The notes under the pieces are model-generated. The model had not been told where the DNA came from. It ran no database searches and was given only the letters and a program-made list of their open reading frames with translations. Shown in pieces: positions 1,249 to 53,496 of a stretch of DNA of 64,000 nt. Source of the stretch: Paucidesulfovibrio longus DSM 6739. GTDB taxonomy: Bacteria > Desulfobacterota > Desulfovibrionia > Desulfovibrionales > Desulfovibrionaceae. Position 1 is the first letter of the stretch; each line of letters starts with the position of its first letter. Both the position numbers and the translations under genes were made by a program. The stretch covers positions 1 through 64,000 of the forward strand of contig NZ_ATVA01000019.1 in the NCBI RefSeq assembly GCF_000420485.1, in the 5' to 3' direction.

Positions 1249-3363
1249 TCAGGACACCTCGGCAGACGCGACCCGTTCCGTCTCCGGCAGCAAAGCCAGC
1301 TCCGCGGCCTGCTCCATGCTCTCCACCAGCTTCACGTCCAGGGCGGCCAGCACTTCCGGCTCCACGCCCTCCACGGCCCCGGCGCACCCGGCAGGCAGCA
1401 GCACCGTGGCAAAGCCCGCCTGCACAGCGGCCATGAGCTTCTCGCGCACGCCGCCCACGGGCAGCACCTCGCCCAGGAGCGAAAGCTCCCCGCTCACGGC
1501 CACGTCCGGGCGCACCGGGCGGCCCGTAAGCAGCGAGAGCAGGGCCAGGGTGATGGTCACGCCCGCGGAAGGCCCCTCCTTGCTCACGGCTCCGGCGGGA
1601 ATATGCACGTGGATGTCGGATGATTCGTAGAAATCGGCAGGGATGCCGTATTGCGCGGCGCAGCTGCGGATGTAGCTCAGGCCCGTGCGCGCGGACTCGC
1701 GCAGCACCTCGCCAAGAGAGCCCGTGAGCATCAATTGCTGGTTGCCTGGCATGCGCGCGGCTTCCACGAGAATGATCTCGCCGCCGTTCTCGGTCCAGGC
1801 CAGACCCGCGGCCAGGCCCACGCGCGGCTTGGTCCGGGCCGAGGCGCGGAAATGGGGCGAAGGTCCGAGCAGACGCTCCACGTCCTCGGCGCTCACGCTG
1901 ATGCCTTCGGGTCCGGGATTCTTTTCGAGCACCTGGCGGGCCAGCTTGCGGCAAAGCGAGGCCACCTGCCGCTCCAGCCCGCGCAGCCCGGCCTCGCGGG
2001 TATAGTCGGCCACGATCTTGCGCACGGCCTCCGGCTCGAACCGGACCTCGCCCGGCTCCAGGCCATGCTGGCGAAGCTGCTCCGGCACGAGGTGGCGCAC
2101 CGCGATCTCGGCCTTCTCGTCCGGGGTGTAGCTGGTGAACTCGATGACCTCCATGCGGTCGCGCAGGGGACCGGGCAGCCGCTCCACGACGTTGGCCGTG
2201 GCGATGAACATGGCCCCGGAAAGATCGAAGGGCAGGCCCAGGTAGTGGTCGCCGAAGGCCGCGTTCTGCTCCGGGTCGAGGATTTCGAGCAGCACCGAAG
2301 CCGCGTCACCCTGAAAGTCCTGGACCACCTTGTCCATCTCGTCGAGCATGATCACCGGGTTGCGCGCCCCGGCCTTGACCACGCCCTGAAGGATGCGGCC
2401 CGGCATGGATCCCACATAGGTGCGCCTGTGGCCGCGCAGCTCGGCCTCGTCGCGCAGGCCGGCCAGGGAAAGCCGGAAGAACTTGCGGCCCAGGGCCTCG
2501 GCAATGGCCTTGCCGATGGAGGTCTTGCCCGTGCCCGGAGGCCCGGAAAAGCAGAGCACCGGCCCGCGCAAAAAGCGCGCCCGCCCGCTGCGCAGCAACA
2601 GCTCGTCCACATGCGCCCGCAGCTTGGTCAGGTTCACGGGCTTGCTCAGATATTGATCCGCGCCCTGCCGCATGGCCGTGACAGCGCTCTTCACCGTGGC
2701 ATAGCCCGTGAGCATGATCACTCCGGTGTCGGGCCAGCCCTTGCGCAGTTCCTGGAGCAGCTCCAGCCCGTCCATGCGTTCCATCTTCAAGTCCGTGACC
2801 ACCACGTCCGCAGGCTGCTCGCGCATGGCCTCCAGCGCTTCCAGGCCGTTGGACACGGCGCGGACCTCGTGTCCGTCCTTCTCGAAGACGATGGTCAGGT
2901 TCTCGCGGGCAATGGCCTCGTCGTCCGCGAGCAGAATTCTGGCCTGGCGGCGGCTGCGCAGGCTCTTCACGGCGAGGAACTCCAGGATGCGCTCCTTGAC
3001 GCGGCCCAGTCCGAAGTGGCGCGCGTCGAGCAGGGCCGAAGCCCGCTCCAGGTCCAGGTCGTCCTTGGTGCTCACGTTCCAGGGCAGGGAAAGCAAAAAT
3101 TCAAGATAGTTGCAGCTCAGCGCGTATTCCGGGGAGGAGCGGTCCACCTTGGCCAGCCGCTCGCACTCGTCCCGCGCCGCAGAGCGCGCGTGGGCCGGAA
3201 GCCCCGCGGACTCGACGCGGGCGCGCAGATCCTCCAACACGGGATCCTGTTCCGGCAGACGCTCCAACCGTTCGCTGCGCGGCGAAGCATCCGCCTTGTC
3301 CGTCCGCTCCGCCGCCGACGCAGGCGCGGCCTGCTCCTCGCTCTTTCTCCAGAACCAGCTCAT
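1249..3363 (-). CDS. Lon-type ATP-dependent protease with an internal response-regulator receiver domain
   Basis: 704 residues. The usual N-terminal LON substrate domain is missing; the protein begins near the linker helix before NYLEFLLSLPWN. After VKERILEFLAVKSLR, where a normal Lon goes straight to its Walker A, a complete receiver domain (about 140-257) is inserted. It has acidic D147/D148, phospho-acceptor D191 in VVVTDLKM, the LTGYA threonine and K241 in LSKP. The AAA+ module follows (Walker A GPPGTGKT at 274-281, Walker B MLDEMDK), then the S16 protease with the Ser599/Lys642 dyad in KEGPSAG and REKLMAA. The 43-residue Ser-Lys spacing equals that of classical Lon. Phosphorylation probably gates ATPase or proteolysis, which is inferred. 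No histidine kinase is adjacent. The housekeeping Lon is presumably encoded elsewhere. Confidence 0.93.
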   Translation of the reverse strand: MSWFWRKSEEQAAPASAAERTDKADASPRSERLERLPEQDPVLEDLRARVESAGLPAHARSAARDECERLAKVDRSSPEYALSCNYLEFLLSLPWNVSTKDDLDLERASALLDARHFGLGRVKERILEFLAVKSLRSRRQARILLADDEAIARENLTIVFEKDGHEVRAVSNGLEALEAMREQPADVVVTDLKMERMDGLELLQELRKGWPDTGVIMLTGYATVKSAVTAMRQGADQYLSKPVNLTKLRAHVDELLLRSGRARFLRGPVLCFSGPPGTGKTSIGKAIAEALGRKFFRLSLAGLRDEAELRGHRRTYVGSMPGRILQGVVKAGARNPVIMLDEMDKVVQDFQGDAASVLLEILDPEQNAAFGDHYLGLPFDLSGAMFIATANVVERLPGPLRDRMEVIEFTSYTPDEKAEIAVRHLVPEQLRQHGLEPGEVRFEPEAVRKIVADYTREAGLRGLERQVASLCRKLARQVLEKNPGPEGISVSAEDVERLLGPSPHFRASARTKPRVGLAAGLAWTENGGEIILVEAARMPGNQQLMLTGSLGEVLRESARTGLSYIRSCAAQYGIPADFYESSDIHVHIPAGAVSKEGPSAGVTITLALLSLLTGRPVRPDVAVSGELSLLGEVLPVGGVREKLMAAVQAGFATVLLPAGCAGAVEGVEPEVLAALDVKLVESMEQAAELALLPETERVASAEVS

Positions 3364-3453
3364 GCTGCCGACCTCCCGCCGCTTTATCCGTTGCTGCGCA
3401 TGCCGCCTCGGCCCCCTCTCCGCCGGAGGCGGCGTCTGATGCCGCCGATAGTC

Positions 3454-3482
3454 TGGATAGCACGCTGTTCACGGGGTGTTAA
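3454..3482 (-). promoter_or_regulatory. possible sigma-70 promoter of the REC-Lon gene
   Basis: On the minus strand TTAACA (3482-3477), a 17-base spacer and TATCCA (3459-3454), placing a start about 80 bases upstream of the ATG at 3363. The match is moderate. Confidence 0.3.
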
Positions 3483-3701
3483 CATTGCACATTGCAACAG
3501 GCGAAAACCAACCTGAAAGCCTCCCTCCCGCAGACATGGCAGCGGCCTCCTCAGACGAGGCCAATAACAGCTCAACACGCCGTATTGTTTGGTTTTAATC
3601 CGAAAAAGATTTCGAGAAAAGTTTCCCAAGCAGGGCAAATCCCGTGTCCAGCTCCTGCTTCGCGCGCTGGAATCGCCTTTTTGCGGGCCTTGGTTTCAAT
3701 C

Positions 3702-3790
3702 TGCAACACCGATTATGCAACACGTCATTGATGCTGTAATTTAAGGATTTTTATTTTCAAGGGCTGCAACACCGTTACGATCTGCAACGC
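3702..3790 (+). repeat. paired TGCAAC direct repeats, candidate activator-binding sites
   Basis: Two 25-base units, each with two TGCAAC boxes: TGCAACACCG at 3702 with TGCAACACG at 3716, and TGCAACACCG at 3765 with TGCAAC at 3783. The units start 63 bp apart (six helical turns) and lie about 100-190 bp upstream of the predicted sigma-54 start, the normal place for enhancer-protein sites. Function is inferred from placement. Confidence 0.5.
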
Positions 3791-3863
3791 AAAACCGCCC
3801 CCCCCTGACGCGCATATTTCCCGCAGGGCAGGAATCCGTGGAATTATAAGGCCTGCCGGGTCT

Positions 3864-3879
3864 TGGCACGGCTCTTGAT
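3864..3879 (+). promoter_or_regulatory. sigma-54 (-24/-12) promoter of the stress-protein/SLC13/NhaB operon
   Basis: TGGCACG, four bases, then TTGAT. It matches the consensus TGGCACRNNNNTTGCW at every fixed base except the last C of TTGC. Predicted start near 3890, about 20 bases before the ATG at 3911, with the ribosome site GGGAGG in between. Confidence 0.6.
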
Positions 3880-3910
3880 ATTTTCAGGGCAAAACACAGG
3901 GAGGCTCCCC

Positions 3911-4528
3911 ATGAACATCGGCAAGACGGCCAGAAGACTTTTCAACGGGCACTACGAGACCATGGCGACCGACCATTGCAACACCTGCCACGTGGGAACG
4001 TGGTTCATCAATCGCCAGCAGCACCTGGCCGAAGAAGCAGGAGGGTTCAAGTTGAAGACTTTATTCGACCGCTTCCGAAACAAGGGCCGCGCTTCCGCCA
4101 CCAAGAAGGCCGCCACCCCCGCCGCCGCCAGAACCGCGACCCAGACCGTCGCGGCTCCCCGCGCCGCCTGCAAGATCCTCGTGGTCAGCAAGGGCACGTC
4201 CTTCTCCAACGAAGTCATGGAATACGCCATCGACATGGCCTCCAAGACCAGAAGCTCGCTGGTCGCCCTGAACCTGGACGAGAACGGACACAATTTCTCC
4301 CAGTTCGAGAACACCTGCGCCTCCAACATCGACGGCTTTTCCTGCCGCGCGGCCGAGGCCGGGCTCCGCTTCAACCATCTGGTGCGTTCCGGCGCCGAGG
4401 ACCACGTCGTCGCCGATCTGCACAAGGAAGATTCCGAGTTCCGCTACGTCATGAACGACGTCGTCAGCGAGTCCTCCACGAGCCGCTCCATTCCCGTCTA
4501 CACCCGCGCCACCCTGCGCGTCCGGTAG
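3911..4528 (+). CDS. universal-stress-protein-like protein with N-terminal CxxCH motif
   Basis: 205 residues from the ATG after GGGAGG. The N-terminal 30 residues contain DHCNTCHVGTW, a CxxCH motif. There is no signal peptide, so this is more likely a metal-binding site than a covalent heme site. A basic Ala/Lys-rich linker (about 55-80) leads to a Usp/HUP-fold domain (about 85-170: KILVVSKGTSFSNEVMEYAIDMA). The normal Usp nucleotide motif GxxGxxG is not evident, so it may be of the non-ATP-binding type. It heads a likely operon with an SLC13/RCK permease and NhaB, suggesting a regulatory role in ion or anion transport. The overall call rests on the domain. Confidence 0.7.
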   Translation: MNIGKTARRLFNGHYETMATDHCNTCHVGTWFINRQQHLAEEAGGFKLKTLFDRFRNKGRASATKKAATPAAARTATQTVAAPRAACKILVVSKGTSFSNEVMEYAIDMASKTRSSLVALNLDENGHNFSQFENTCASNIDGFSCRAAEAGLRFNHLVRSGAEDHVVADLHKEDSEFRYVMNDVVSESSTSRSIPVYTRATLRVR

Positions 4529-45210: not shown

Positions 45211-45236
45211 AAGGCAGCCCCGGCTGCCTTTTTTTT
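45211..45236 (+). terminator. rho-independent terminator
   Basis: AAGGCAGCC (45211-45219) / GGCTGCCTT (45222-45230), followed by T to about 45236. Confidence 0.88.
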
Positions 45237-45265: not shown

Positions 45266-46564
45266 ATGATCGAACGCTACTCCCGCCCGGAAATGGCCGC
45301 GCTCTGGACGCTTGAAAACAAGTTCCGGGCCTGGCTGGAAGTGGAGTTGGCCGTCTGCGAAGCCTGGTGCGAGCTGGGCGTCGTCCCCGCCGAGGACATG
45401 CGGATCATCCGCGAGAAGGCGGACTTCGAGCTGGACCGCATCCTCGAAATCGAGGAACGCACCAAGCACGACGTCATCGCCTTCCTCACCGCCGTGGAAG
45501 AGAAGGTCGGACCGGCCTCGCGCTGGATTCACCTCGGCTGCACCTCCTCGGACATCGTGGACACGGCCAACGGGCTGCTGCTGACCCGCGCGGGCGCGAT
45601 CATCGCCGAGGATCTGGACAAGCTCCTGGCCGTGCTCCGGCGCATGGCCGACGAGCACAAAGGCCGCCTCTGCATGGGCCGGACCCACGGCATCCACGCC
45701 GAGCCCACCACCTTCGGACTCAAGCTGACCGGCTTCTACGCCGAGTTCAAACGCCACAAAGCCCGGCTCGACGCCGCGCGCGAGGGCGTCCGCGTGGGCA
45801 AGATTTCCGGCGCGGTCGGCACCTACGCCCACCTCTCCCCGGAGCTGGAAGAACGCGCCCTGAACATCCTCGGCCTCGCGGTCGATCCCGTGTCCACGCA
45901 GATCATCCAGCGCGACCGCCACGCGCACTTCTTCACGGCCCTGGCCCTGCTCGCCGGGGGCATCGAGCGGCTGGGCACGGAACTGCGCCACCTCCAGCGC
46001 ACGGAAGTGCTGGAAGTGGAGGAAGGCTTCTCCAAGGGGCAGAAGGGCTCCTCGGCCATGCCGCACAAGAAGAACCCCATCTCCGCCGAGAACCTCTGCG
46101 GCCTCTCCAGGCTGGTGCGCACCAACGCCCTGGCCTCCATGGAGAACATGCCGCTCTGGCACGAGCGCGACATCTCCCACTCCTCGGTGGAGCGCGTGAT
46201 CATGCCGGATTCGACCATCCTCATGGACTACATCCTCGCCCGCATGACCGGCCTGCTCGACCGGCTCAAGGTCAACGCGGACAACATGGACCGCAACCTC
46301 CAGGGCTCCTTCGGCCTGTTCTACTCGCAGCGCCTGCTGATGAAGCTGCTGGACAAGGGGCTGAAGCGCCAGGAAGCCTACGAAATGGTCCAGGCCGTGG
46401 CCATGCGCTGCTGGGAAGAGCGCAAGGCGTTCCAGACCGAGGCCGCGGCGGACGAGGGGCTTCGCGCGCATCTTTCCCCCGAAGAATTCGCCGATACTTT
46501 TGACCCTTCCTATTACCTGCGGTATGAAAACGTGATATACGACCGAGTATATCGGGAGGACTGA
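45266..46564 (+). CDS. purB: adenylosuccinate lyase
   Basis: 432 residues. The fumarase/aspartase superfamily signature [16 protein letters not shown] is present, along with [14 protein letters not shown] and [14 protein letters not shown] (catalytic His). Cleaves adenylosuccinate and SAICAR in purine synthesis. Three bases before pyrE, so the two are co-transcribed, linking purine and pyrimidine supply. Confidence 0.97.
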
Positions 46565-46567
46565 GTC

Positions 46568-47125
46568 ATGGACGACCTGAAGCGGCGCCTTGCGCGCCTG
46601 CTCCTGAACCTCTCCTACGTGGAGGGGGAGGTTACGCTGACCTCGGGCAGAAAAAGCGATTACTACTTCGACTGCAAGCAGACCGCCCTGCACCCCGAAG
46701 GCGGATGGCTCATCGGCTCCCTGTTCCTGGAAATGCTCCAGGGGAAAGGCGTGGCGGGCGTGGGCGGCATGACCCTCGGCGCCGATCCTCTCGTCAGCGC
46801 CGTAAGCGTCCTCTCCTACGAAAAAAATTGTCCTCTGCCCGCTTTTATTATAAGAAAGCAGTCTAAAGGGCATGGAACCAATCAGTTCCTGGAAGGCATG
46901 AAGAACTTCGCCCCCGGAAGCCGCGTCGCCCTTCTGGAAGACGTGGTCACCACCGGAGGAACCCTGCTCACCTCCGTGGAGCGGGTCCGTGAGGCGGGCT
47001 ACGAGGTCGATTCCGTGCTCTGCGTGCTGGACCGCGAGGAAGGCGGACGCGAACGCCTTGCCGATGCGGGACTCAGCCTGGACGCCATCTTCACCCGCGC
47101 CGAATTGCTGGCGGCGGGGAAATAA
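46568..47125 (+). CDS. pyrE: orotate phosphoribosyltransferase
   Basis: 185 residues. PRPP-binding motif VALLEDVVTTGGT, substrate loop with FIIRKQSKGHGT, and TSGRKSDYYFDCKQTAL at the N-terminus. Joins orotate to PRPP to give OMP. Overlapping transcription with purB upstream; the cell-shape genes start 32 bp downstream and may be read from the same message. Confidence 0.96.
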   Translation: MDDLKRRLARLLLNLSYVEGEVTLTSGRKSDYYFDCKQTALHPEGGWLIGSLFLEMLQGKGVAGVGGMTLGADPLVSAVSVLSYEKNCPLPAFIIRKQSKGHGTNQFLEGMKNFAPGSRVALLEDVVTTGGTLLTSVERVREAGYEVDSVLCVLDREEGGRERLADAGLSLDAIFTRAELLAAGK

Positions 47126-47157: not shown

Positions 47158-48420
47158 ATGAAGGGACTAACGCCCCCCGCCCTGCTCCTGATCCTGTTCC
47201 TCGTTGCGGGTACGGCCCGTGCCGACGGTTGGTCGCCCGTATTCAGCTCCCACGACCAGGGCCCGGAGATCATGGTCGCCGTGGACAAGGATTCGCAGAC
47301 CCTCTACGTGCTCGGCCGCCACAGCCCGCTGGAAGTGGTCCGCAAGCTGCCCTGCACCACGGGGCAAAGCGACGGGGACAAGGTCGAACGCGGCGACCTG
47401 CGCACGCCCGAAGGCGTCTACTTCATCGAAGGCCGACTGGACCAGGGGCTCGACTGGGAGCTTTACGGCGACGTCGCCTACCCCCTGAACTATCCCAATC
47501 CCGTGGACCGCATCCGGGGCAAGTCCGGCTCCGGCATCTGGCTGCACGGCCGAGGCAAGCAGCTCGTCCCGCGCGACACGCGCGGCTGCGTCGCGCTTGC
47601 CGATCCGGATATCGACGGTCTCGGCAAGGATCTCTTCACGGACATGCCCGTGGTCATCGCGGGCAAGGTCGCCTGGACCGAGACGGGCGGAAAGGACGCG
47701 CAGGAAGCGGCCGACCTCGTGCATGAAGTGCGCGAGTGGGCCAAAAGCTGGAGCGCCAGGAGCGAGCATTTCTTCGATTTCTACGCCCCGAAGCTTTTGA
47801 GCGCCTCCGGCATCGACTTCGACGGCTTCCGCGCGCACAAGCGCAACATCTTCAAGAGCCAGCCCTGGATCGACGTGATGGTGGACAATGTCAAGGCGCT
47901 CCAGGGGCCCGGATACTGGGTGACCTGGTTCGACCAGTACTACCGCACCGGGAGCCTGACCTCCGCCGTGGGCAAGCGGCTCTACTGGCAGCAGGACGAA
48001 TCCGGAAACTGGCGCATCGTGGGCAGGGAAATCACCTCGGCCAGCGACGACCTCGCCGACAAGTACCTCTCCTCCCGCTCGGAAGAGCTCCGCGGCCTGA
48101 TACATTCCTGGGCCGAAGCCTGGCAAAAGGCCGACCTCAAGGACTACGCCTCCTTCTACGACAAGGCGGCCGTTCAGGACGGACGGCGCGGAGCCGACGA
48201 CATCGCCGCCTACAAGGCGACTCTCTGGGCCGAACGTCCGCCCAGAGTGGTCGATGTGCAAGACATAGAGATACGCCCCCACGAAATGGGCCTCATGGCC
48301 AGCTTCGTCCAGACCTACCGCGACGCTTCGGGCTACGAGGACAAGGGCCGCAAGACCCTGATCCTCACTCCCACCCCCGACGGCTGGCGTATCGTCAATG
48401 AGCAGTGGAGAGCCTTATGA
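47158..48420 (+). CDS. L,D-transpeptidase-fold protein with C-terminal NTF2 domain, Csd6/Pgp2-like
   Basis: 420 residues; signal peptide to about 22. YkuD/Ldt catalytic domain (about 35-170): SGSGIWLHGRG with H130 and DTRGCVAL with the nucleophile C144. A linker and a C-terminal NTF2-like domain follow (about 300-420: LIHSWAEAWQKADLKDYASFY). This two-part layout is that of H. pylori Csd6 and Campylobacter Pgp2, which use the transpeptidase fold as an L,D-carboxypeptidase that trims tetrapeptides and sets cell curvature. Its stop overlaps the next start (ATGA). The third gene of the run is a Csd4/Pgp1-like enzyme, supporting a shape role. Plain transpeptidase activity remains possible. Confidence 0.85.
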   Translation: MKGLTPPALLLILFLVAGTARADGWSPVFSSHDQGPEIMVAVDKDSQTLYVLGRHSPLEVVRKLPCTTGQSDGDKVERGDLRTPEGVYFIEGRLDQGLDWELYGDVAYPLNYPNPVDRIRGKSGSGIWLHGRGKQLVPRDTRGCVALADPDIDGLGKDLFTDMPVVIAGKVAWTETGGKDAQEAADLVHEVREWAKSWSARSEHFFDFYAPKLLSASGIDFDGFRAHKRNIFKSQPWIDVMVDNVKALQGPGYWVTWFDQYYRTGSLTSAVGKRLYWQQDESGNWRIVGREITSASDDLADKYLSSRSEELRGLIHSWAEAWQKADLKDYASFYDKAAVQDGRRGADDIAAYKATLWAERPPRVVDVQDIEIRPHEMGLMASFVQTYRDASGYEDKGRKTLILTPTPDGWRIVNEQWRAL

Positions 48421-49145
48421 ACGACGCCAAGTACAGCATCCTCTTCATGCGGGACGACCTCGACGTCCGCCGTTTCCGGCTCAACCCCTTCTGGCTCAAA
48501 TCGATCTTCGTCAGCCTGACCCTGCTGGTGCTGGTCGCCGCGGCGGGCATCTACTTCGGCGCGACCTCGCTTCGGGACAACCTGCGCCTGCGACACGAGA
48601 ACAAGGAACTTTCCCAGCGCCTCGACGAGGCCGAACTGCGGCTGAGCACCCTGGGCAACATGGAGAAGATCCTCGAATCCTACGACACCAAGGAACTCCA
48701 GAGCCTGCTCAGCCCGGAGAAGGCCGAGACCCCGGAAGCCGAAGCCAAGCCGACGGCCCCCTCCGAACCGGCCAAGCCCGCCGTGGACCTCTCCTCCATT
48801 TTCGCCAAGACCGACACGGGAGCCGTGCGGCTCGAAGACGTCCGCCTGGAAATCGAACAAAAGCAGGTGCTCGTCAGCTTCAATCTGCTCAACAACCTGG
48901 GCAACACCCAGCTCAGCGGCGACACGCGGCTCGCCCTCGTGGCCAACAACGGCGAGGTCATCGAACTGCCCGCCAAGAACGCCGACCTCTCGTTTCAGAT
49001 TCAGCGGCGCAAGCCCATCCGAGCCAGAGTTCCCCTGCCGGACGGCCTGGACAGGGCCAACGTCTTCGGCCTCCGGTTGACGGTCACCCGCGAAGACGGA
49101 AAGGTCGTGTTCAGTGAAACGTACCCTCAATATCGCGTGGATTAG
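48417..49145 (+). CDS. single-pass membrane coiled-coil protein between two peptidoglycan enzymes
   Basis: 242 residues, start overlapping the upstream stop by ATGA. One membrane helix (about 25-50) follows a short cytoplasmic head with positive charge. Next come a heptad-like helix (about 55-85: LRHENKELSQRLDEAELRL), an acidic Pro/Glu/Ala linker and a C-terminal beta domain (about 125-240). Its 3' end overlaps the carboxypeptidase gene by 32 bp. No known family. The position suggests a scaffold that localises the flanking Csd6- and Csd4-like enzymes, as Csd5/Csd7-type proteins do in Helicobacter; this is inference. Confidence 0.65.
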   Translation: MNDAKYSILFMRDDLDVRRFRLNPFWLKSIFVSLTLLVLVAAAGIYFGATSLRDNLRLRHENKELSQRLDEAELRLSTLGNMEKILESYDTKELQSLLSPEKAETPEAEAKPTAPSEPAKPAVDLSSIFAKTDTGAVRLEDVRLEIEQKQVLVSFNLLNNLGNTQLSGDTRLALVANNGEVIELPAKNADLSFQIQRRKPIRARVPLPDGLDRANVFGLRLTVTREDGKVVFSETYPQYRVD

Positions 49146-51030
49146 CCTTTTTCTGCTGCTTTGCGCGGCGTCGGGCGCGTTCGCCGCTTCCGAGCGCTAC
49201 GTCTTCACGTTCTTCGAGGGGACGCAGTATCCCTTGACCGTGGTGTTTTTGCGCGGCGAGGAAAACGGTCCGACCATCATGGTCCAGGGCGGCATCCAGG
49301 GCGACGAGCCTTCCGGGTACATCACGGCCCAGATCCTTTCCCGTTCCCACGTCCGCAAGGGCAACCTCATCGTGGTGCCCCGCGCCAACGTGCCCTCCAT
49401 CAACCTGCGCACGCGGCAAGTCAACGTGGACATGAACCGCCGCTTCGACCGGGACTACAATCTCTTCTACGAAGACCGGCTCGCCCGCGTGGTCCGCTTT
49501 CTCCTGGCCCAGTCCGACGCGCTCATCCACCTGCACGAGGGCAGCGGATTCTACCACCCCACCTACGTGGACAATCTCCGCAACCCCATGCGCTACGGCC
49601 AGTCCATCATCATCGACACCCTGGTCTACGGGCGCTGGAACCTGGGCCGCACGGTGGACGACGTGCTGGCCAAGCTGAATCCCGGCATTTCTCCGGAAAT
49701 CTACCGCTTCCAGCTCTTCAACACGCGCACCTTCGACGACCAGACCAACTACTCGGAAATGCGCAAATCCCTGACCTGCTATGCGCTGACAGCCCTGAAC
49801 ATCCCGGCCATGGCCGTGGAGGTCAGCAAGAACATCACCCAGCTCGACTGGAAGGTGCAGCGCCAGCTGGAAGCCACGGAGGCCCTGCTGCGCCACTACG
49901 GCGTGGACCTGGACGCCCCGGAGGTCAGCTCCAGCATGGTCGCGGACTATGCGGACGACGTGCGCGTGCGCATCAACGGCAAGACGCTCTCCCCCGGCCA
50001 GACCATCGACCTCGCGCCCGGCGCGCCCCTGACCGTGGAAACCGAAAACGAAAGCAACGTGCTCTCCCCGGCCGTTTCCGTGTTCGCCTCGGACCGTCCC
50101 GGCGTGAACCTGATCAACACGCCCCGCCTCGCGCTGGACTCCTTCCAGAAGCTGGAGGTGCGCTCCGACGGCAAGATGGTGGCCTCGGCCCGCGTGCGCG
50201 TCCAGGGCCGGCTTTCCGGCGGGGAAGACATGCGCCCGCCCGTGTTCGTCTGCTGGCTGAACGGCAAGCCCCATTTCGTGCGCGAGGGAGAAACCCTCGC
50301 CGCCCTGGTGGGCGACCAGCTCATCCTCGAAGGAATCTGGGGCTCCTCGCGCGAGGAAGTCCTGAACTTCAAGGGCTACGTGGCCCAGCGCAGCCCCAAC
50401 GACGGCCAGGACTGCGGCTGGGAAATCATTCTCGACCCGGACAACTTCATGGACAAGTATCGCCTCGACGAGGAAGCCGACCACGACCGCGACCGGGCCG
50501 AAGACGCCCTGGCGCGCTGGGCGGGCCGCGCTCCCGAACAGGACGCCGCACGCTTCCGCATCGTCCGCGAGACGCCGGGGCAGCCCCGCTCCGAATTCTA
50601 CGTCGCGGTGCGGCCCCGCACGGTGCACGCCCTGCGCCTGCTCGACGACCAGGGCAAGAGCGTGGTCGTGCCCTGGCGGCCCGGCGACGAGTTTCGACTG
50701 CCCGAAGGCAGCTACGTGCTGGAGGACGCCTGGAGCAACGGCTCCGCGGACAAGCTCCTGACCACGGCCAACGACATGCCCGTGCGCACCGGCGCTTCGG
50801 TGCGCGTCTCCAAAGACTCGATCCTGCGGCTCTGCCTGCGGCAGGCCACCACCTTCGCCTCCATGGGCTCCATGACGCTCACGGCGCGCGGCTCCAAGGC
50901 CGATCCGGCATCCGCCGCCGATGCAGCCCGGACCGCCTCGCCGCAGCGGCCCGCCTCCGCAGACGCAAAGCGCGCCAGACCGGCACAGGCCGTCGTCGCC
51001 GAACCGCCCGTGCATCACGCCACCCGCTGA
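49114..51030 (+). CDS. M99-type peptidoglycan carboxypeptidase, Csd4/Pgp1-like
   Basis: 638 residues, GTG start after GGAAAGG, overlapping the upstream gene by 32 bp. Signal peptide ends AFA (about 24). The M14-like domain (about 28-270) has MVQGGIQGDEPSGY: Gln62-x-x-Glu65 where ordinary M14 enzymes have His-x-x-Glu, and the later His in IHLHEGSGFYHP. A Gln zinc ligand is the known mark of Helicobacter Csd4. Beta-rich domains follow (about 280-590), including GKPHFVREGETLAALVGDQL, then a disordered Ala/Pro tail. Expected to cut tripeptides to dipeptides in the periplasm and thereby shape the cell. Confidence 0.85.
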   Translation: MKRTLNIAWISLFLLLCAASGAFAASERYVFTFFEGTQYPLTVVFLRGEENGPTIMVQGGIQGDEPSGYITAQILSRSHVRKGNLIVVPRANVPSINLRTRQVNVDMNRRFDRDYNLFYEDRLARVVRFLLAQSDALIHLHEGSGFYHPTYVDNLRNPMRYGQSIIIDTLVYGRWNLGRTVDDVLAKLNPGISPEIYRFQLFNTRTFDDQTNYSEMRKSLTCYALTALNIPAMAVEVSKNITQLDWKVQRQLEATEALLRHYGVDLDAPEVSSSMVADYADDVRVRINGKTLSPGQTIDLAPGAPLTVETENESNVLSPAVSVFASDRPGVNLINTPRLALDSFQKLEVRSDGKMVASARVRVQGRLSGGEDMRPPVFVCWLNGKPHFVREGETLAALVGDQLILEGIWGSSREEVLNFKGYVAQRSPNDGQDCGWEIILDPDNFMDKYRLDEEADHDRDRAEDALARWAGRAPEQDAARFRIVRETPGQPRSEFYVAVRPRTVHALRLLDDQGKSVVVPWRPGDEFRLPEGSYVLEDAWSNGSADKLLTTANDMPVRTGASVRVSKDSILRLCLRQATTFASMGSMTLTARGSKADPASAADAARTASPQRPASADAKRARPAQAVVAEPPVHHATR

Positions 51031-51118: not shown

Positions 51119-51457
51119 ATGACGCTTGGCGATTCTACCAAATGTTGCACGCTGCCCCGTCCGGAAACCAACGGTCCGGAACGGTACGCGGCCAGGGCAA
51201 AGGTGATGAAGGCCATGGCGCACCCTTCGCGATTGATGCTCGTGGACGAGTTGTCGCGCGGAGAACGCTGCGTCTGCGACCTGACGAACCTGGTCGGCCA
51301 CGACATTTCTACGGTTTCGAAGCATCTGGCCGTGCTCAAGAAGGCCGGGCTCGTGGAGGACGAGAGACGCGGCAAGCAGGTCTTTTACCGCATGCGGGTT
51401 CCCTGCGTGCTGAATTTCTTTCAATGCCTGGAGGCGGTGCTGGCTGCGGACCGATAG
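51119..51457 (+). CDS. ArsR-family metalloregulator
   Basis: 112 residues. Winged helix with ERCVCDLTNLVGHDISTVSKHL; the CVCDL pair in helix 3 is the classic As/Sb-binding site of ArsR. A CC pair near the N-terminus (TKCCTL) may add a ligand. The ATG at 51119 lies almost on the ribosome-site-like AGAGGA, while an in-frame ATG at 51090 would lie inside the promoter, so a near-leaderless start at 51119 is favoured. Two matching palindromes, one inside this gene and one before the next, mark its regulon. Confidence 0.85.
   Translation: MTLGDSTKCCTLPRPETNGPERYAARAKVMKAMAHPSRLMLVDELSRGERCVCDLTNLVGHDISTVSKHLAVLKKAGLVEDERRGKQVFYRMRVPCVLNFFQCLEAVLAADR
51126..51143 (+). promoter_or_regulatory. ArsR operator copy 1
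   Basis: TTGGCGATTCTACCAAAT, matching the copy at 51478 at 15 of 18 bases. It is just after the predicted start, within the first codons of arsR, so binding would block its own transcription. Confidence 0.55.
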
Positions 51458-51522: not shown

Positions 51523-51753
51523 ATGAAAATTCAGGTTTTTGGTCCGGGCTGCGCAAAGTGCACCCAAACGGAAAAAGTCGTCCGCGAGGCGCTGGCGGAA
51601 TCCGGCGTGCAGGCGGATGTGGTCAAAATCACGGACTTTCAGGAAATCGCGTCCTTCGGCGTGTTCTCAACGCCCGCCGTGGCCGTGGATGGCGAGGTAA
51701 AGCTCGTCGGCGCGGTGCCGACGAAAAACGACGTGCTGGGCTGGCTGAAATAA
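51523..51753 (+). CDS. redox-active disulfide (thioredoxin-like) small protein
   Basis: 76 residues from the ATG after ACGGAGG. The protein starts KIQVFGPGCAKC, with the CxxC redox pair at residues 10-13, and has the cis-Pro element FSTPAVAVDGEV. Known small family usually placed next to ArsR-type regulators and metal or organoarsenical genes. Likely reduces a partner in the cytoplasm. Its promoter carries the ArsR-like operator. Confidence 0.88.
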   Translation: MKIQVFGPGCAKCTQTEKVVREALAESGVQADVVKITDFQEIASFGVFSTPAVAVDGEVKLVGAVPTKNDVLGWLK

Positions 51754-51781
51754 CCGACCGACCTACCTGGGAGAAATGGAC

Positions 51782-52156
51782 ATGTCATCGAACTGCTCTT
51801 GTTCCTGCGGTGAAGCCCCGAAATTCGTGTTTTCCTGCTCCGGTGCGGCGGATGTCGGTGAGATCGCGGACCGGGCCGCCCGCGTCGTCTCCCGCGAGGG
51901 AGCCATCAAGATGTTCTGCCTCGCAGGCATCGGAGGCCGTGTTTCCGGCATCGTCAAAAGCACGGAGGCCGCCGCCCTGGTCGTGGCCGTGGACGGCTGC
52001 CCGCTGAACTGCGCCAGAAAGACCCTGGAGCAGGCTGGAATCACCGACGTGAAGCACGTGCAGCTGCACGAACTCGGCCTGAAGAAAGGGGAATCCCCGG
52101 CCACCGAAGAGCGCATCGAGCAGACCGCGCAAGCGATCCGCTCCCTGCTCGGCTGA
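51782..52156 (+). CDS. DGC-domain putative zinc-binding protein
   Basis: 124 residues from the ATG at 51782 (eight bases after GGGAG; an ATG at 51776 is too close). Cys-rich head SSNCSCSCGEAPKFVFSCSG, then the family motif DGCPLNCARKTLEQAG at about 73-88. Metal-binding protein of unknown action; commonly encoded with thioredoxin-like and ArsR proteins, as here, so probably part of the same metal or arsenic response. Confidence 0.85.
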   Translation: MSSNCSCSCGEAPKFVFSCSGAADVGEIADRAARVVSREGAIKMFCLAGIGGRVSGIVKSTEAAALVVAVDGCPLNCARKTLEQAGITDVKHVQLHELGLKKGESPATEERIEQTAQAIRSLLG

Positions 52157-52361: not shown

Positions 52362-53072
52362 ATGGAAGGAATGGCCGAGAGCGGATTCTGGTCGCTGCTG
52401 CTGGAAACCGGGCCGGTGATCAAAGTGGTCTTCGCGGTGCTGCTGGCCATGTCCCTGGCCAGCTGGAGCCTGATTTTCCTGAAATGGCACGAACTGCGCA
52501 AGGCCCAGGCCCAGGCCCGCGAGGACAGGTCCGCCTTCGAGGCCGCCTCAAGACTGGACCAGGCCATGACCTCGACCCGCACGCGCCCGGACCAGGGCGT
52601 GTCCCGCCGGGTGGCGGAAACGGGCATGGACGAACTGCGCCGCCTCGCCGACCTGGACCTCGACCCCGCGGTCAAGGGCAGAATCATCCTCGAAAGCGTG
52701 CGCCACACCTTGCAGGACGAAGCCCAGGCCCAGGCCGACAGGCTCCACGGCTCCCTGGCCCTCCTGGCCACGGTGGGCAACGTGGCTCCGCTCCTCGGCC
52801 TTTTCGGCACGGTCTGGGGCATCATGAATTCCTTTTCCAGCATCACGGGCGGCGCGGACATCGTCACGGGCGTGGCTCCCGGCCTTGCCGAGGCGCTTTC
52901 GACAACGGCCCTCGGCCTGATCGTGGCCATTCCCGCGGTCCTGGCCTACAACGCCTTCCTCAAGCGCCTGGGCGACATCGAAGGCGAGCTGGCGCGGCTT
53001 TCCAGCGCGTTCATGAACCGGGTCAAGGAGGAATTCTCCAGCATCCTGACCTGCGCTCCCAGGGAGAATTGA
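52362..53072 (+). CDS. TolQ/ExbB-family proton-channel subunit
   Basis: 236 residues after GGAGGAAC. Three membrane helices (about 18-40, 140-165 and 180-200), and the family core GNVAPLLGLFGTVWGIMNSF and GLAEALSTTALGLIVAIPAVL. With the ExbD/TolR protein encoded next, forms the proton-driven motor in the inner membrane. Confidence 0.92.
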   Translation: MEGMAESGFWSLLLETGPVIKVVFAVLLAMSLASWSLIFLKWHELRKAQAQAREDRSAFEAASRLDQAMTSTRTRPDQGVSRRVAETGMDELRRLADLDLDPAVKGRIILESVRHTLQDEAQAQADRLHGSLALLATVGNVAPLLGLFGTVWGIMNSFSSITGGADIVTGVAPGLAEALSTTALGLIVAIPAVLAYNAFLKRLGDIEGELARLSSAFMNRVKEEFSSILTCAPREN

Positions 53073-53073
53073 G

Positions 53074-53496
53074 ATGGCTCCCCGCGCCCGCCGCCGCTTC
53101 CTTTCCGAGATCAGCACCACACCCTTCGTGGACGTCATGCTCGTGCTCCTGGTCATCGTCATGGTCGGCACGGCGGTCAAGGGCAAGGGAGTGGAGGTCG
53201 AGCTGCCGCGCACCCGCACCGTGCAGTCCCTGCCCAAGGGCAGCGGCCATTTCGTCCTGAGCATGGACGCGGACGGCAGGATTTTCATGGACACGGAGGA
53301 AGTGGACCGGGACCATCTCAAGGAATATCTGGTCCAGCGCGTGCTCAAGCAGGACAAGGCCGTGTTCCTGCGCGCGGACAAGGACGTGCCCTACGGCGAG
53401 GTCGTCAGGGTCATGGCCGAAATCCGCGAGGCAGGCGTCCCGCGCATAGGAATCGTGGCCGAACCCGAAGACCAGGCCGCTCCGGGCAGCGACTGA
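53074..53496 (+). CDS. TolR/ExbD-family protein
   Basis: 140 residues, start one base after the tolQ-type stop. One membrane helix (about 15-38) with the essential Asp in TTPFVDVMLVLLVI, then a periplasmic domain with RADKDVPYGEVVRVM. Works with the TolQ/ExbB protein. Confidence 0.92.
   Translation: MAPRARRRFLSEISTTPFVDVMLVLLVIVMVGTAVKGKGVEVELPRTRTVQSLPKGSGHFVLSMDADGRIFMDTEEVDRDHLKEYLVQRVLKQDKAVFLRADKDVPYGEVVRVMAEIREAGVPRIGIVAEPEDQAAPGSD

Follow-up and report, generated by a model that had tools for sequence, protein, structure and literature searches.

The window analysed here is a 64,000-nucleotide stretch of the genome of Paucidesulfovibrio longus DSM 6739 (order Desulfovibrionales; contig NZ_ATVA01000019.1, positions 1 to 64,000). 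It contains three overlapping genes, designated genes 1, 2 and 3 (Table 1), which appear to specify a secreted LD-carboxypeptidase, a single-pass membrane protein and a secreted DL-carboxypeptidase. We think it probable that this operon represents a two-step pathway for the trimming of peptidoglycan stem peptides together with a dedicated membrane scaffold, and that it bends the cell. Both enzyme families are already known; what is new is an operon in which an LD- and a DL-carboxypeptidase are joined with an undescribed membrane protein. All three open reading frames (ORFs) lie on the + strand where the first-pass annotation of the window, made from the sequence alone, had placed them, and the overlaps are those that it described. 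The ATG of gene 2 at 48417 overlaps the stop codon of gene 1 (48418–48420) as ATGA, and gene 2, which ends at 49145, overlaps gene 3 from its GTG at 49114 by 32 bp; the start codons are provisional calls.

The gene 1 product, the sole YkuD match in its genome, contains a YkuD domain at residues 40–155 (Pfam, E-value=7.9e-13) and two stretches matching Csd6_C NTF2 (PF24125; 4.7e-28, 98.1 bits against a cut-off of 27). Its best matches among PDB sequences are Bd1075 (7o21; 2.5e-33), Csd6 (4xzz; 3.8e-21) and Pgp2 (6xj6; 7.7e-19, also 2.3e-18), the next being a YkuD-domain protein at 0.0022. In an alignment of 29 rows, taken from 45 reference sequences, the catalytic H130, G131 and C144 are present throughout, and the residue two positions after the cysteine (Cys+2, here A146) is Ala in 27 rows, Val in one and, in the Cloacimonadota row, Arg. 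Ala at this position is described for Csd6/Pgp2 and for YafK-like hydrolases, and Arg for most transpeptidases (PMC8938487; published work is cited here by PMC number and from extracts of each paper). Residue equivalences with Pgp2 were counted by hand on the pairwise alignment, the register being fixed by Pgp2 H157 and C174. By this count Y103 (Pgp2 Y130) is kept in 28/29 rows and W128 (Pgp2 W155) in 29/29, while K228 and K273, both present in all 29, align with the NTF2-pocket lysines K257 and K307 of Pgp2. The latter were studied for peptidoglycan binding and helical shape, and the K307A protein is reported to bind peptidoglycan weakly (PMC8038945). W318, W322, K353, K399 and E415 of the second NTF2 domain are found in 28/29 rows, the Cloacimonadota row having a gap.

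The PDB ranking, the two PF24125 stretches and the Ala at Cys+2 support the assignment of gene 1 as an LD-carboxypeptidase of the Csd6/Pgp2/Bd1075 type, with two candidate wall grips, unlike its solved relatives. The first-pass annotation had given it the Csd6/Pgp2 layout; the transpeptidase-like catalytic domain with H130 and C144 stands, and in place of the single NTF2 domain there are two. It had also named a grouping with plain transpeptidases as evidence against its proposal, and at sequence level the PDB ranking returns LD-carboxypeptidases; a plain LD-transpeptidase was ruled out by that ranking, the NTF2 domains and the Ala at Cys+2. The closest solved relative, Bd1075 of Bdellovibrio bacteriovorus (7O21), similarly has an LD-carboxypeptidase domain and an NTF2-like domain behind a signal peptide, and is reported to generate the curvature of the vibrioid cell (PMC8938487). 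In the extracts available it has one NTF2 domain, Val at Cys+2 and a monocistronic gene, whereas gene 1 has two such domains, Ala and an operon. Csd6 of Helicobacter pylori and Pgp2 of Campylobacter jejuni share with gene 1 the HG...C motif, the Ala at Cys+2 and the lysines of the NTF2 pocket; as described, they differ in possessing one NTF2 domain plus an N-terminal domain or helix. In four loci of the order (L054, L055, L062 and L063, from genomes G078, G116, G113 and G097) the gene 1 ORF is 749–950 amino acids long, against the usual ~420, and in G078 and G116 the NTF2 matches lie ~1 kb apart; an inserted domain or an overlong ORF start is possible in these cases.

Gene 3 specifies a Peptidase_M99 protein (Pfam, 4.2e-33) scoring 117.8 bits, versus 255.8–299.9 for the canonical M99 copies of the order. 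Its best PDB sequence is Csd4 (4.7e-25), and its closest relative among named records is from a Desulfovibrio sp. (79% identity). The predicted structure (mean predicted local distance difference test score, pLDDT, 84.8) has Csd4 as its top Foldseek match (7.7e-24), and the superposition on Csd4 that the first-pass annotation had proposed placed Csd4 at the head of the list (VIA-align Z 26.1, 275 residues aligned, root-mean-square deviation 3.5; next non-Csd4 match, Z 20.1). Residue equivalences were again counted by hand on a pairwise alignment: Gln46, Glu49, His128, Arg86, Asn93, Arg94 and Glu222 of Csd4, to which metal, substrate and catalytic roles are ascribed (PMC4220969), correspond to Q62, E65, H141, R101, N108, R109 and E236. 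In an alignment of 35 rows (34 of 46 reference sequences plus the Cloacimonadota protein of locus L135) Q62 is present in 34, with His in the Cloacimonadota row, and E65, H141, R101, N108, R109 and E236 are each present in all 35. The reading of Gln62-x-x-Glu65 as the mark of Csd4 is thus borne out, and the metal site, whose absence had been named as grounds for rejection, is kept at sequence level in Q62, E65 and H141.

Sequence and model together support a DL-carboxypeptidase of the Csd4/Pgp1 (M99) type. Residues 40–363 superpose on Csd4 at 3.5 A, whereas an alignment reaching residue 500 does so only at 15.6 A, and the C-terminal domains of the model are for this reason placed otherwise than in Csd4, or are different. 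Gene 3 further differs from Csd4/Pgp1 in its ~100 additional C-terminal residues and in the tree position of the operon copies from the order, which are separated there from canonical M99 as a clade of their own (see below). Succinylglutamate desuccinylase/aspartoacylase, considered as an alternative identity, was outscored by M99/Csd4 in Pfam and in the comparisons of PDB sequences and of fold. A gene 3 homolog of 713 amino acids in locus L042 (4850–6991) carries a long Lys/Ala-rich C-terminal tail, perhaps for wall or lipopolysaccharide binding; those of L102, L104 and L113 are similarly long.

Between the two enzymes lies a protein that, as first supposed, is single-pass and of unfamiliar kind. 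The alignment of gene 2 comprised 39 rows, the window protein and 38 full-length ORFs (L092, in two pieces, and the truncated L126 were left out), and exactly one hydrophobic segment, starting at residue 22–34, was found in each. No Pfam-A family exceeded its cut-off for the window protein (best 17.1 bits against 25), and over the 39 members no family was matched in more than two at E <= 0.01 (best 8.1e-4). PHROGs gave no match, NCBIfam gave a best E-value of 0.16 and a search of PDB sequences with the gene 2 profile gave bests of only 0.74 and 0.75. The predicted structure (mean pLDDT 86.4, predicted template modelling score 0.51) consists of a hairpin (residues 6–22), a helix (24–88), a low-confidence linker (99–116) and a beta domain (137–237). 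R12, D13 and R21 of the hairpin are near-invariant (37/39, 39/39 and 38/39), and the short, presumably cytoplasmic N-terminal end thus appears to be strongly constrained. Foldseek returned weak and mixed matches (best 4.6e-04), and VIA-align returned chiefly parts of glycoside hydrolase family 2 enzymes (Z 8.9–11.1; the best, Z 11.1, over 95 aligned residues at 2.2), which we take to be immunoglobulin-like (Ig-like). In the model, such matches tell of a beta-sandwich fold and not of function.

The anchor half of gene 2 aligns in register with an M23 endopeptidase of the same genome (locus L136, P0004; hhalign probability 95.6). Both have the hairpin, the transmembrane segment and the coiled-coil region, and the endopeptidase carries its M23 domain where gene 2 carries the Ig-like domain. 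The probability fell to 2.0 when the M23-side columns were reversed and to 8.6–10.1 when only the transmembrane and coiled-coil columns were shuffled (5 shuffles); it was 86.0–92.0 when only the hairpin columns were shuffled (5 shuffles), and 41.8 for the hairpin by itself. The bulk of the score therefore comes from the transmembrane segment and coiled coil, where composition helps, so that common descent is unproven and the likeness of the two anchors is suggestive of it. In locus L212, from another family of the phylum, the gene 2 profile matched a protein (23.0 bits, 3.2e-06) whose C-terminal end reads by eye as a probable M23 domain.

The distribution of the genes was examined by profile and sequence searches of 150 genomes of the order. 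At least 98 gave a match to gene 2 (a later profile added G011, G016 and G031), 90 to M99 and 120 to PF24125. Canonical M99 (>200 bits) occurs in 43 genomes and the operon kind (<200 bits) in 47, with both in none, although one genome elsewhere in the phylum (G352) carries the two; this exclusivity, in a count that ignores the kinship of the genomes, looks like the displacement of one carboxypeptidase lineage by another. Of the 48 operon-kind copies of M99, 41 follow gene 2 directly (same strand, within 1000 bp); of the 43 canonical copies none does. A tree of 87 sequences retrieved with the loci (rooted at the midpoint and flagged for long branches) separates 10 canonical from 40 order-operon sequences by a fully supported branch (100/100); five operon-like or solitary sequences from other parts of the phylum, two with gene 1 upstream, join the canonical side loosely.

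The recommended search for conserved gene order in Desulfovibrionales made use of 49 loci with titled records, mostly from this order, which were found with gene 3 as query, include only carriers of that gene and share several contigs with the genome set. The order 1-2-3 was found in 39 (with gene 2 split into two pieces in L092, and likewise gene 3 in L134), and 35 of these lie behind purB and pyrE. In five further loci gene 2 is lacking (see below), three hold gene 3 only, L126 breaks off ahead of gene 1 and L133 is fragmented. Genes 1, 2 and 3 are a conserved unit and not a chance arrangement. Where gene 1 meets gene 2, the two overlap by 4 bp in 20 of 37 loci and by 1 bp in 13; the 37 are the loci, out of 38, with gene 1 and gene 2 ORFs of >=200 amino acids (L099, without a start codon, was left out), the start of gene 2 being the nearest ATG or GTG 5' of the motif as chosen by script. 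In 34 of 38 loci the gene 3 ORF is already open at the stop codon of gene 2, and in four it opens after it. Gene 1 is directly upstream of gene 2 in 37 of 38 fetched loci of the order with gene 2, whereas in many genomes gene 3 is absent or is replaced by a canonical M99 elsewhere, so that genes 1 and 2 are the steadier pair. In two loci of family f5 (L065 and L086), two adjoining distant gene 1-like ORFs with strong PF24125 matches were seen away from the purB-pyrE locus.

The module had been presented as a feature of the host bacterium, and this did not hold: it is spread over many families of the phylum, and gene 2 is missing in some lineages. M99 occurs in 51 of 247 phylum genomes, 43 of them outside the order, from 37 of which 38 M99 regions were retrieved (G322, G350, G150, G189, G220 and G227 were left out). 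Gene 1 is upstream on the same strand in 31 of the 38, and the seven without it include two canonical M99. Gene 2 was detected by profile between genes 1 and 3 in 20 regions, with weak matches (14.6 to 45.2 bits), and in four more (L204, L211, L214 and L220) an ORF of like layout fills the gap, for a total of 24. Over 40 fetched regions the profile matched 22 separate ORFs. Twenty sit between genes 1 and 3; one of the remaining two follows pyrE at the edge of a contig, the other is the M23-like protein, and both come from regions fetched because of such a match. In some regions outside the order purB or pyrE is kept upstream. Outside the phylum, Cloacimonadota contig WRIO01000113.1 (L135) has genes 1 and 3 side by side (ORFs 1041–2516 and 2560–4350). 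Its gene 1 is extended by a long segment ahead of the YkuD domain, has no second NTF2 domain at the C-terminus and carries Arg at Cys+2, and its gene 3 has His for Gln in the metal motif.

The mechanism that we infer from the enzyme families, their conserved catalytic residues, the predicted layout of gene 2 and the conserved gene order would run as follows. Gene 1 would grip the wall by its two NTF2 pockets and remove D-Ala from tetrapeptides (tetra to tri), and gene 3 would then remove meso-diaminopimelic acid from the tripeptide (tri to di). Such a coupled pathway is most likely, being the simplest reading, since in C. jejuni Pgp2 is reported to convert tetrapeptide to tripeptide and so to supply the substrate of Pgp1 (PMC3961634, PMC8038945), and the counterparts of these enzymes, genes 1 and 3, lie head to tail. 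Gene 2, which bears no enzyme signature and is encoded between the two, would reside in the inner membrane with its conserved N-terminal hairpin, coiled coil and periplasmic Ig-like domain, where it would most likely hold both enzymes at particular sites of the wall and connect them to a cytoplasmic partner, a bactofilin or the elongasome, as is thought for Csd5. The resulting uneven trimming would bend the cell, a role proposed by homology. The host genome yielded six matches to M23 and four to bactofilin, of which one lies within a larger protein of a different kind; gene 2 might bind any of these bactofilins.

Csd5 of H. pylori is described as a non-enzymatic, single-pass inner-membrane protein with a short cytoplasmic N-terminus and a periplasmic C-terminal domain (PMC9448923), and is comparable with gene 2 by layout alone. 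Its cytoplasmic end is reported to bind the bactofilin CcmA and its outer domain to contact the wall, CcmA clusters forming also without Csd5 (PMC9448923); loss of Csd5 is reported to abolish curvature with muropeptides unchanged (PMC3844677). Csd5, as described, ends in a wall-contacting SH3 domain, whereas gene 2 combines a long helix with a predicted Ig-like domain, and SH3 models are absent from the Pfam matches of its 39 members. The H. pylori genes csd6 (HP0518) and csd4 (HP1075) have locus numbers far apart and bd1075 is monocistronic, so that the joined form is unlike these studied systems. Among the titles and abstract openings listed, mainly from open-access journals, none dealt with this operon, with what Csd4/Csd6 or Pgp1/Pgp2 do in Desulfovibrio or elsewhere in its phylum, or with curvature genes of Desulfovibrio.

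Several observations weigh against a trimming pathway with its own scaffold. In the alignment, E107 of Pgp2 falls on R78 of gene 1, where Glu is found in 19/29 rows (the adjacent residue is E77, and a register shift is possible), and the Cloacimonadota gene 1 has Arg at Cys+2. Operon-type gene 3 was not found in 56 of the 98 order genomes with gene 2; in 36 of these the only M99 is a canonical copy at another site, and in 20 M99 was not matched at all, so that not every genome offers gene 2 a complex of genes 1 and 3 to serve. In genus g25 gene 2 stays behind pyrE with gene 1 missing there (L064), and the genes are apart in other g25 genomes too. Conversely, genes 1 and 3 occur without gene 2 in five of the 49 loci (L124, L125, L128, L131 and L135) and are directly adjacent, with gene 2 missing, in seven of the 38 regions outside the order; the enzyme pair can thus do without it. 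The gene neighbourhoods of related genomes, moreover, are not independent. The curvature module with its own scaffold that was first envisaged is no more than plausible, on account of the layout of gene 2, which is that of a membrane scaffold, and of its position, which links it to genes 1 and 3. A wider proposal, which we hold as tentative, is that of a phylum-wide transmembrane shape machine, in which gene 2, by its M23-type anchor and Ig-like domain, would join the two carboxypeptidases in a single complex that trims tetra- to dipeptides and is positioned through binding of the cytoplasmic hairpin to a cytoskeletal protein, with curvature set by one operon.

Some of the same facts would suit a gene 2 product that acts in the envelope independently of the two enzymes, with M23 endopeptidases or the elongasome as conceivable partners, and is merely co-transcribed: the resemblance of its N-terminal half to an M23 anchor (the hhalign result and the L212 match), the 20 of 98 genomes without M99 and the separate locations of genes 1 and 2 in g25 (L064, L065). 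We regard this as rather unlikely, in view of the position of gene 1 directly upstream in 37 of 38 loci within the order and of the 20 of 22 separate profile ORFs that sit between genes 1 and 3 outside it. Less likely still, trimming might be real and serve general peptidoglycan maturation or recycling, with curvature as one outcome in some lineages. The presence of the module in many phylum families, its housekeeping, growth-linked look directly behind the nucleotide genes purB-pyrE in 35 of 49 loci and the reported rise of dipeptides in the helical-to-coccoid change of C. jejuni (PMC6767375) would agree with this; against it, curved or helical shape is reported to depend on Csd6, Pgp2, Bd1075, Csd4 and Pgp1, and Pgp1 was described as conserved mainly in helical and vibrioid epsilon- and delta-Proteobacteria, with relatives noted in 2012 (PMC3310789). 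That gene 1 is instead an LD-transpeptidase or a DpaA-like lipoprotein amidase is very improbable. It does have a YkuD domain and a weak match to DpaA (21.9 bits, the cut-off of that model being 365). Against this stand the two PF24125 stretches, the three LD-carboxypeptidases at the head of the PDB matches and the Ala at Cys+2 in 27/29 rows, although the Ala, being common to YafK-like enzymes too, is by itself insufficient against an amidase. A two-step trimming pathway with a membrane scaffold remains the reading that we favour.

The three genes had been taken as one translational unit. Their conserved order upholds the grouping, and its extent needs revision, as purB and pyrE belong to it too. 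These two genes, the second of which is probably pyrE, lie 5' of gene 1 and 3' of a terminator-like hairpin at 45211–45230, with gaps of 3 bp between them and 32 bp between pyrE and gene 1. A scan of the window revealed no terminator-like site on the + strand from purB to the end of gene 3 and no promoter-like site. Transcription probably starts upstream of gene 1, the working unit being purB-pyrE-gene 1-gene 2-gene 3; its borders are provisional, the scan having found four terminator-like sites versus 6.3 in shuffles, i.e. no excess.

Table 1. Coordinates of the genes, protein domains and flanking features of the operon
Feature	Position	Strand	Basis or remark
Terminator-like hairpin	45211..45230	+	8 pairs then TTTTTT, consensus match only; between zinc-ribbon (FmdB-type) gene and purB
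purB, adenylosuccinate lyase, conserved upstream neighbour	45266..46564	+	Pfam Lyase_1 9e-55, ADSL_C 4e-22; order kept
Phosphoribosyltransferase, probably pyrE, conserved upstream neighbour	46568..47125	+	Pfam Pribosyltran 2.8e-07; order kept
Gene 1, putative secreted LD-carboxypeptidase of Csd6/Pgp2/Bd1075 type, two NTF2-like domains (P0001)	47158..48420	+	Profile and PDB-sequence matches
Gene 1, YkuD catalytic domain (H130, G131, C144, A146)	47275..47622	+	Pfam and alignment
Gene 1, NTF2-like domain a (K228, K273)	47716..48021	+	PF24125 stretch; Pgp2 alignment
Gene 1, NTF2-like domain b (K353, K399, E415)	48097..48405	+	PF24125 stretch and alignment
Gene 2, single-pass membrane protein, undescribed family (P0002, from fifth residue)	48417..49145	+	
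Gene 2, N-terminal beta-hairpin (R12, D13, R21), presumed cytoplasmic	48417..48482	+	Model; membrane side inferred
Gene 2, continuous helix: transmembrane segment and presumed coiled coil	48486..48680	+	Model; one hydrophobic segment
Gene 2, predicted C-terminal Ig-like beta domain	48810..49133	+	Model; VIA-align
Gene 3, putative secreted M99 DL-carboxypeptidase of Csd4/Pgp1 type, extra C-terminal part (P0003)	49114..51030	+	
Gene 3, catalytic domain (Q62, E65, H141 metal; R101, N108, R109; E236 base)	49258..49908	+	Csd4 alignment
Gene 3, C-terminal beta-rich part, ~100 modelled residues beyond Csd4 alignment	49966..50934	+	Model
Gene 3, low-confidence Ala/Pro/Arg-rich tail	50935..51027	+	pLDDT <50 at 608–638

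Immediately 3' of gene 3, on the same strand, is a gene for an ArsR-family regulator (51119–51454; HTH_5, 4.2e-14), followed by those for a Thioredoxin_3 protein (51523–51750) and a DGC-domain protein (51776–52153). Further downstream (52362–53493) lies a MotA/TolQ/ExbB and ExbD/TolR pair, an envelope energy module near the wall operon. The host genome also has a dsrA match (616.3 bits; cut-off, 392.85), in keeping with a bacterium that reduces sulfate or sulfite.

This operon bears on the question of how trimming enzymes come to be placed asymmetrically on the wall. In the extracts available, the authors of the Bd1075 study knew of no mechanism for targeting such enzymes to one side wall (PMC8938487), and in Helicobacter Csd5 was merely suspected of placing Csd4 and/or Csd6 (PMC3844677). 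Across the phylum, genome organisation links both enzymes to a candidate placing protein, and the operon offers a testable genetic handle on the shape of sulfate-reducing bacteria.

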